From the NCBI GenBank assembly GCA_002731275.1, contig PCBK01000031.1, positions 1 to 64,000 of the forward strand: 64,000 nt of DNA, in the 5' to 3' direction. This DNA comes from Deltaproteobacteria bacterium. Its GTDB lineage: Bacteria > Myxococcota_C > UBA6777. This document shows positions 61,974 through 63,503 of the stretch, one piece after another. Below the pieces are notes generated by a model. That model saw only the letters and a program-made list of their open reading frames with translations, was not told the DNA's origin and ran no database searches. Position numbers and translations under genes: made by a program. Each line of letters starts with the position of its first letter. The stretch's first letter is position 1.

Positions 61974-63503
61974 ATGAAGCACATCATCGCATCCACCTTT
62001 GGCTTACTCTCTTTGTTTGCTGTAAGCCCAGCATGGTCGTATTTTGAATACGCTCCTTCTTCCAACCAATACAAGCATTGCTACAAACAATGTCGCAGAG
62101 CCTGTCGCACTCACTTTTCTCGACACTGCCGTACTTATACGCGATTGCAAACGGAGTGCAAGGACTACACACGTTGGCAAACGCGATGTAAGGACTACAC
62201 ACGTTGGCAAACGGAATGCAAAGACTACACACGTTGGAAAATACGGTGTCGCCGAGTAAAAAAGGTTTACACTCGTTGTCGCAATTACCCTGTGATCCGC
62301 AAACGTTGCCTGAGTGTTGGATGGAATTCTCGTTTTTGTATGCGGCATCGGGAGTTGCGCAGAAAATGTCGTGACTATGTCAAATGGAAGACGCGATGTC
62401 ATCAAGTCCCCAAGCGTTTTCGTCGTTGTCGTCAAGTCCCCAAAAAATACACCCGTTGTGCCCGTGTCCCCGAAAAGTATCGTCGCTGTCATCAGGTCCC
62501 CAAACAGTACACTGAATGCCGTCGTGTGCCACGCGTTTTTTGTCGTAACAACTGTGAGACAAAGTGCAAACGACCTGTCACAACATGTCGTCGATATCTT
62601 CGATGGCGTCGAAAGTGTCGTAATTACTTTCATTGGGAGAAGAAGTGTCACAAGAAGATCACGTGGCAACGAGAGTGTCGTAATGTCGTGAAGTACCAGC
62701 AGCGATGCAAGGACTACACACGTTGGCAAACGCGATGTAAGGACTACACACGTTGGCAAACGGAGTGCAAAGACTACACACGTTGGCAAACACGGTGTCG
62801 TCGAGTGAGAAAGGTTTACACTCGTTGTCGCAATTACCCTGTGATCCGCAAACGTTGCCTGAGTGTTGGATGGAATTCCCGTTTTTGTATGCGGCATCGG
62901 GAGTTGCGCAGGACATGTCGTGACTATGTCAAATGGAAGACGCGATGTCGTCAAGTCCCCAAGCGTTTTCGTCGCTGCCGCCAGGTCCCCAAACAATACA
63001 CCCGATGTGCTCGTGTTCCTAAACGATTCCGTCGATGCAAACAGATCCCTATCATGCAACAGCGCTGTCGAAATGTTCCTAAAGTGAACACATTCTGCAA
63101 GCGTGTGCCTCGCTCAGGGCAGGTTTGTGAGCGTGTTCCACAACAATTTCGTAAGTGCCACACAACGTGGGTTCACACACACCCCGATGATGTCAGACAC
63201 GCTGGCGATGATATGCCATCAGCACCTCCTCCAGGAGAAGGCCGCACACCCTCATTCCCTCCCTCTAGGACGGATGATATGCCGACAGCTCCTCCTGTTA
63301 GTGAGATGAACAAGATCAAACGCCGTTTGTCGACGTATCGGAGCAATATGTGGCAGTACCGTCGAGCATATCGTAAGGCAAAGCGCGAATATGAGCGTTC
63401 TGGAGACGCCTTTTTTCTCAAGAGAATGATGCGATACCGTCGAATGTATCGACTTAATAAGCAGGCGTATAGGGCGTTGAAGAGGAAGTATCCAACGTTA
63501 TAA
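61974..63503 (+). CDS. Secreted Cys/Arg-rich decapeptide-repeat protein
   Basis: Signal peptide MKHIIASTFGLLSLFAVSPAWS; CKDYTRWQTR / CRQVPKQYTR units, Cys mostly every 10 residues; SD AGGAGG. Confidence 0.85.
   Translation: MKHIIASTFGLLSLFAVSPAWSYFEYAPSSNQYKHCYKQCRRACRTHFSRHCRTYTRLQTECKDYTRWQTRCKDYTRWQTECKDYTRWKIRCRRVKKVYTRCRNYPVIRKRCLSVGWNSRFCMRHRELRRKCRDYVKWKTRCHQVPKRFRRCRQVPKKYTRCARVPEKYRRCHQVPKQYTECRRVPRVFCRNNCETKCKRPVTTCRRYLRWRRKCRNYFHWEKKCHKKITWQRECRNVVKYQQRCKDYTRWQTRCKDYTRWQTECKDYTRWQTRCRRVRKVYTRCRNYPVIRKRCLSVGWNSRFCMRHRELRRTCRDYVKWKTRCRQVPKRFRRCRQVPKQYTRCARVPKRFRRCKQIPIMQQRCRNVPKVNTFCKRVPRSGQVCERVPQQFRKCHTTWVHTHPDDVRHAGDDMPSAPPPGEGRTPSFPPSRTDDMPTAPPVSEMNKIKRRLSTYRSNMWQYRRAYRKAKREYERSGDAFFLKRMMRYRRMYRLNKQAYRALKRKYPTL

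Follow-up and report, generated by a model that had tools for sequence, protein, structure and literature searches.

The repeat protein and its gene

The question raised by this locus is what a secreted protein with a cysteine at almost every tenth residue might do for the bacterium that makes it. The stretch of DNA analysed (the window) comprises 64,000 nucleotides of contig PCBK01000031.1, from a deltaproteobacterial genome of 10.75 Mb (G000). The repeat protein encoded here is 509 aa long and contains 40 cysteines. Its 39 Cys spacings are 10 residues (32 spacings), 4 residues (four), 8 residues (two) and 7 residues (one); the maximum number of 10-residue spacings across 20,000 composition-preserving shuffles was seven. 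The mature protein is rich in Arg (20%), Lys (10%) and Cys (8%), with a pI of 10.8 and a net charge of approximately +115. It is preceded by a signal peptide (MKHIIASTFGLLSLFAVSPAWS, followed by Y) with an AxS motif at -3/-1, read by eye from the translation and not with a predictor. The original prediction of a secreted, strongly basic protein with Cys mostly at every tenth residue is upheld by these values and by the similar starts of the homologues. No lipobox, anchor or sorting tail was found in the sequence, so that export is supported while the surface or matrix location also predicted may be correct but goes beyond the signal peptide. The exported protein may reside in the periplasm, in the outer membrane or in the medium.

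An antisense open reading frame is present at 62004-63059. Homologues of the repeat protein in sister genomes and strong constraint on the + frame (dN/dS 0.10 for L006/L007, the one close pair, dS being saturated for the remaining homologue pairs) identify the frame listed in Table 1 as the gene and rule out the antisense frame. The repeat-protein family is under purifying selection.

Table 1. Features of the repeat-protein gene and of other window loci (window positions)
Feature	Position	Strand	Details
Repeat-protein gene	61974-63503	+	Open frame; AGGAGG just upstream of ATG
Sec signal peptide, residues 1-22, predicted cleavage AWS/Y	61974..62039	+	Translation; homologue starts similar (ASA/F, AMA/F, AWG/W)
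N-terminal cap CX3CX3CX7C, Cys 36, 40, 44, next Cys 52	62079..62126	+	4-4-8 spacing in 8/9 aligned homologues
Module A, 13 Cys-decads, residues 52-181	62127..62516	+	Cys-spacing comparison of homologues
Internal cap X7CX3CX3C, Cys 182, 190, 194, 198	62517..62573	+	8-4-4 spacing kept in P0001, L004, L005, L009, L006, L007, P0003
Module B, 19 Cys-decads, residues 205-394, last Cys 395	62586..63155	+	Cys-spacing comparison of homologues
Cys-poor Pro/Asp-rich linker, residues 395-441	63156..63296	+	Translation; AF2 pLDDT mostly <50
Basic C-terminal alpha-hairpin, residues 442-509, without Cys	63297..63500	+	AF2 helices 442-476, 479-505, pLDDT about 85-97
Internal DNA duplication, copy 1	62157..62467	+	294/311 identical to copy 2
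Internal DNA duplication, copy 2	62706..63016	+	294/311 identical to copy 1
Lipoprotein-like 1167-aa protein, six DsbA/thioredoxin-like domains	6692-10195		
Two DpdF/HamB/BrxH-like helicases	45752-48280, 48240-50687		Dpd-type cluster
DpdA-like TGT	50706-51665		Dpd-type cluster
DpdC-DpdA fusion	about 56035-58434		Dpd-type cluster; DpdA E-value 1e-118
preQ0 synthesis genes FolE2, QueD/PTPS	58508-59308, 59309-59671		Dpd-type cluster

Modular architecture

The Cys spacings of the family follow the string 4-4-8-(10x13)-8-4-4-(7 to 20)-(10x19) across genera. Two further features not described in the original prediction, fixed caps and fixed unit counts, are apparent from this string, which is present in full (13 + 19) in the window protein (P0001), L004 and L009; L005 is 15 + 19. 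Module A also has 13 decads in L006 and L007, which consist of one module each and carry the caps seen in the two-module proteins. Module B has exactly 19 decads in P0001, L004, L005, L009 and P0003. The genome also carries two paralogues absent from the original prediction, P0002 (270 aa) and P0003 (342 aa), both on contig C159. At only approximately 30% identity with the window protein, P0003 retains the caps and the 19 decads and lacks the 13-decad module A, and P0002 has a shortened N-terminal cap, the exception among the nine aligned homologues.

The number of decads is counted, not loose. The decads also have position-specific identities that are kept across species, passing from YTRW units through NYPV and xxGW to VP units. 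The fixed caps and counts, the even Cys number and these position-specific decads together point to a defined fold rather than a free low-complexity sequence.

The C-termini are more varied. L006, L007, P0002 and P0003 share a basic segment at the C-terminus with a Cys on either side, the two Cys being 36 residues apart; the window protein lacks this segment. The basic tails of P0002, P0003 and L006 are alike, and their similarity to that of the window protein is not clearly significant, so a C-terminal domain common to the window protein and its paralogues was not established. Acidic C-terminal tails (DDF, EEF, poly-Asp) close several relatives.

Internal duplication and evolution

The nearly identical block of approximately 250 bp first noticed in this gene is real and slightly longer, at 311 bp with 94.5% identity (Table 1). 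The codon differences between its copies are 11 synonymous and 6 non-synonymous, and the halves of the protein give a dN of 0.025 and a dS of 0.185. In a tree of halves, the two halves of one two-module protein tend to cluster with each other and not with the matching half elsewhere. This pairing has starred support for L005 and moderate support for P0001 and L009, and the L004 pair sits in an open fork. Because the 13 + 19 layout is common to the two-module proteins, concerted evolution (repeated homogenisation of the halves) is more likely than independent duplications.

What is surprising in this family is the constancy of its unit counts. Repeat proteins usually lose and gain units freely. 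That 13 and 19 are kept across genera, despite homogenisation of the halves in most two-module proteins, suggests selection for a disulfide lattice that is precise and constant in length.

Distribution and genomic context

The repeat family is real, undescribed and lineage-specific. By profile search it is encoded in all five genomes of the window's taxonomic family (G000-G004) and in none of 381 genomes outside it, a restriction that adds to the earlier description of the locus. A scan of genome contigs with the window protein as lone query gave no matches; with a three-row alignment, matches were confined to metagenome-assembled genomes of the same lineage, recorded as Deltaproteobacteria (M3003) and Myxococcales (S139). 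No relatives were found in viral contigs or plasmids. The earlier statement that no family could be recognised is borne out by profile search and structure prediction, as Pfam, NCBIfam and PDB (sequences and folds) contain no relative. A match to HdeB (E-value: 0.25) is noise, and a weak match in G051 was rejected as a family member (it crosses six stops and is not recovered by the profile).

The neighbours of the gene vary between genera and none is conserved family-wide. The window gene lies beside the gene for a Cys-rich Sel1 lipoprotein and beside an HD-domain gene. Downstream of the repeat gene in G001 and G003, a secreted SpoIID-domain protein with a MopE motif is encoded; its homologue in G000 is on a different contig and does not adjoin the window gene. 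A conserved unknown protein lies downstream in G002 and G004, and in G004 the short paralogue has a DPBB lytic-transglycosylase-like gene on one side and a gene for DsbD on the other.

Other loci were also observed. The Sel1-repeat lipoprotein (60367-61680, 29 Cys) is divergent from the repeat gene, shares its intergenic region and is a second disulfide-rich candidate. A lipoprotein-like protein with 79 Cys and no Pfam match (L066:5384-6886, - strand) adjoins P0002 on C159. The region 45752-59671 of the window resembles a Dpd-type cluster for 7-deazaguanine modification of DNA (Table 1).

The context bears on whether the protein is a secreted antimicrobial or membrane-active effector, the cationic modules of which would attack competitors. 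Its positive charge, W/Y aromatics and Cys-rich secretion resemble the composition of cationic peptides. However, the gene is present in all five genomes under purifying selection, no immunity-like or toxin-delivery partner adjoins it, no toxin family was matched, and the protein is large with a fixed lattice. This role is considered improbable.

Each of the five genomes contains murC homologues (above the cut-off in three of them), and the lineage therefore probably has peptidoglycan. For the same reason, replacement of peptidoglycan has been lowered as a candidate role for the repeat protein.

Cysteines and oxidation

The number of mature cysteines is even in nine of ten homologues (L011 is odd); the window protein has 20 in each of its modules. 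The signal peptides of L004 and L009 each contain one extra Cys, which lies outside this count. Cysteines are conserved between copies at 40/40 positions (window/G003), 22/22 (G002/G004) and 40/41 (G003/G001). CxC, CxxC and CxxCH motifs are absent from all nine homologues checked.

All five family genomes encode one VKOR each, DsbD, and relatives of the window's multi-DsbA lipoprotein (several matches per genome). The VKOR at G000:C13:23280-23672 and its counterparts in G001-G004 lie within open frames of 440-605 codons, which makes a fusion of VKOR with a further domain probable. Contig C128 of G002 carries DsbA-like matches in a long run. Because multi-DsbA proteins, VKOR and DsbD occur in every genome with the repeat family, its cysteines are likely oxidised. 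Export, an even Cys number and an oxidase system are general traits of disulfide-bonded secreted proteins, and the repeat protein has all three. Disulfide linkage, as originally predicted, thus gains indirect support from the even counts, the Cys conservation, the missing CxC and CxxC motifs and a lineage rich in DsbA, VKOR and DsbD. It is also plausible, as further suggested, that the hexa-DsbA lipoprotein acts on the repeat protein as its client, given the co-occurrence of multi-DsbA proteins with the repeat protein in all five genomes. The suggestion is weakened by the distance of approximately 52 kb between the two genes in the window and by the fact that the five genomes form one clade.

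A metal- or metalloid-sequestering protein or a free-thiol redox buffer, similar to metallothionein, could also have 8% Cys and strict Cys conservation. The missing motifs are those of metallothioneins, zinc ribbons and cytochromes c, which makes metal binding unlikely. Acidic residues are also very few, the Arg-rich surface disfavours cation binding, and the lineage that exports the protein is rich in thiol oxidases. We give this function very little probability.

The Cys counts also bear on the main rival, in which the protein is a soluble, internally disulfide-bonded binder of polyanions or adhesin (for extracellular DNA, LPS or exopolysaccharide) in the medium or periplasm. Even Cys counts with exactly 20 per module favour intramolecular closure, and a fixed number of units suggests a defined fold over an elastic polymer. 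The very high Arg/Lys content, the basic C-terminal hairpin and the acidic tails of several relatives also fit a binder. Two 20-Cys modules, a charge of +115 and a composition like that of YTV proteins (see below) would nevertheless be unusual for such a protein, and family searches gave no known ligand-binding domain. A soluble binder is possible, if somewhat doubtful.

Predicted structure

The AF2 model of the whole protein (9 alignment rows) has a pLDDT of 76 and a pTM of 0.34, and that of module A (11 alignment rows) a pLDDT of 82 and a pTM of 0.51; the alignments are shallow and, with most sequences in common, the two runs are not independent. Both models are all-helical: in the YTRW decads, every Cys interrupts the chain of nine-residue helices, and the helices that come after VP are short. 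A PDB fold search with both models returned no match at E-value ≤ 0.001, and the matches obtained were generic coiled coils. Hydrophobic periodicity is strongest at 108 degrees, which leans towards helix and is not significant (P = 0.065). Given the shallow, related alignments, the low pTM and this periodicity, a helical reading of the decads is a lead only.

Proposed model for function

The best explanation is that the protein is a Sec-exported structural protein, disulfide-locked and cationic, that reinforces the envelope or an extracellular matrix in a manner similar to that proposed for YTV proteins; we give this about an even chance. The proposed model is as follows. After Sec export, the VKOR/DsbA machinery would oxidise the 40 cysteines to approximately 20 disulfides, mostly inside each 20-Cys module. 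These would hold the decads, which are predicted to be short helices with a kink at each Cys, in a rigid ladder whose length is fixed, and leftover or shuffled disulfides may join neighbouring molecules. The Arg/Lys faces would bind anionic polymers such as LPS, exopolysaccharide, peptidoglycan or extracellular DNA, and this binding would form or reinforce an insoluble layer of the envelope or extracellular matrix, as proposed for the planctomycete proteins.

The fixed architecture across genera, the even and conserved cysteines, the sequence constraint, the oxidation genes of all five genomes, the agreement of the two AF2 models on a helical module and the envelope-type neighbours at some loci (SpoIID in G001/G003; DPBB and DsbD in G004) count for the structural reading. 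Counted against it are the missing sorting or anchoring signal, the non-conserved neighbours, the shallow alignments and low pTM of the AF2 models, the non-significant helical periodicity, the presence of murC and the odd Cys count of L011. A more specific form of the model is tentative and clearly less probable: a new architecture, in which tandem CX9C units form a length-fixed, disulfide-stapled helical rod coated with Arg and closed by CX3CX3C caps, serving as main envelope or matrix material of one lineage and matured by its own multi-DsbA lipoproteins.

Should the protein prove to form a structural layer, Cys-rich protein material would have evolved in a bacterial envelope a second time, independently and outside the planctomycetes. 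The unusual multi-DsbA lipoproteins would then have a natural substrate, and the design of disulfide-stapled repeats a template.

Comparison with known systems

The YTV-domain proteins (PF07639) of planctomycetes have been proposed as proteins of the cell wall with an effect on its rigidity (PMC8567305, PMC10632474), and they have been reported in planctomycete cell-wall preparations (PMC8567305). Like the repeat family, they are exported, Cys-rich and basic, with repeated phrases similar to CRxVP and lineage-restricted sets of paralogues. The YTV repeats examined have irregular Cys spacings, whereas the repeat family has a strict 10-residue step and caps; its lineage also differs in keeping murC. 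Membership in PF07639 was rejected by profile search and profile-profile comparison. The PF07639 profile (21-bit cut-off), which was positive in three other genomes, matched neither the window genome, nine members (E-values up to 10) nor the five family genomes, and hhalign aligned the repeat family to the YTV alignment with a probability of 20% over 11 columns, in the signal peptide only. A YTV protein may be regarded as the nearest working analogue of the repeat protein, without shared membership.

Mitochondrial twin-CX9C (CHCH) proteins have Cys nine residues apart in helices, and CX3C also occurs in the small Tim proteins. The repeat family is similar in its Cys pairs spaced by nine residues and in the helices predicted here. 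It differs in that its CX9C units are tandem, in unbroken runs of 13 or 19, and in being strongly Arg-rich, bacterial and secreted. The Pfam CHCH-type family gave no match to the repeat family at E-values up to 10. The AF2 helices, from shallow alignments with low pTM, break at Cys, and no fold match resembled the CHCH helix-turn-helix.

Cys-rich Sel1-like (Hcp-type) proteins are exported and built of helical repeats that are held together by disulfides in a regular pattern. Their units are about 36 residues long with a Sel1 profile, whereas the repeat protein has no Sel1 match. Adhesives of the mussel-foot type are secreted structural proteins with basic, Tyr-containing decapeptide repeats. 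Their repeat numbers are loose and they have no Cys lattice; the likeness would be one of analogy only. Set beside these systems, the repeat family would be an undescribed type of disulfide-rich secreted structural repeat protein.
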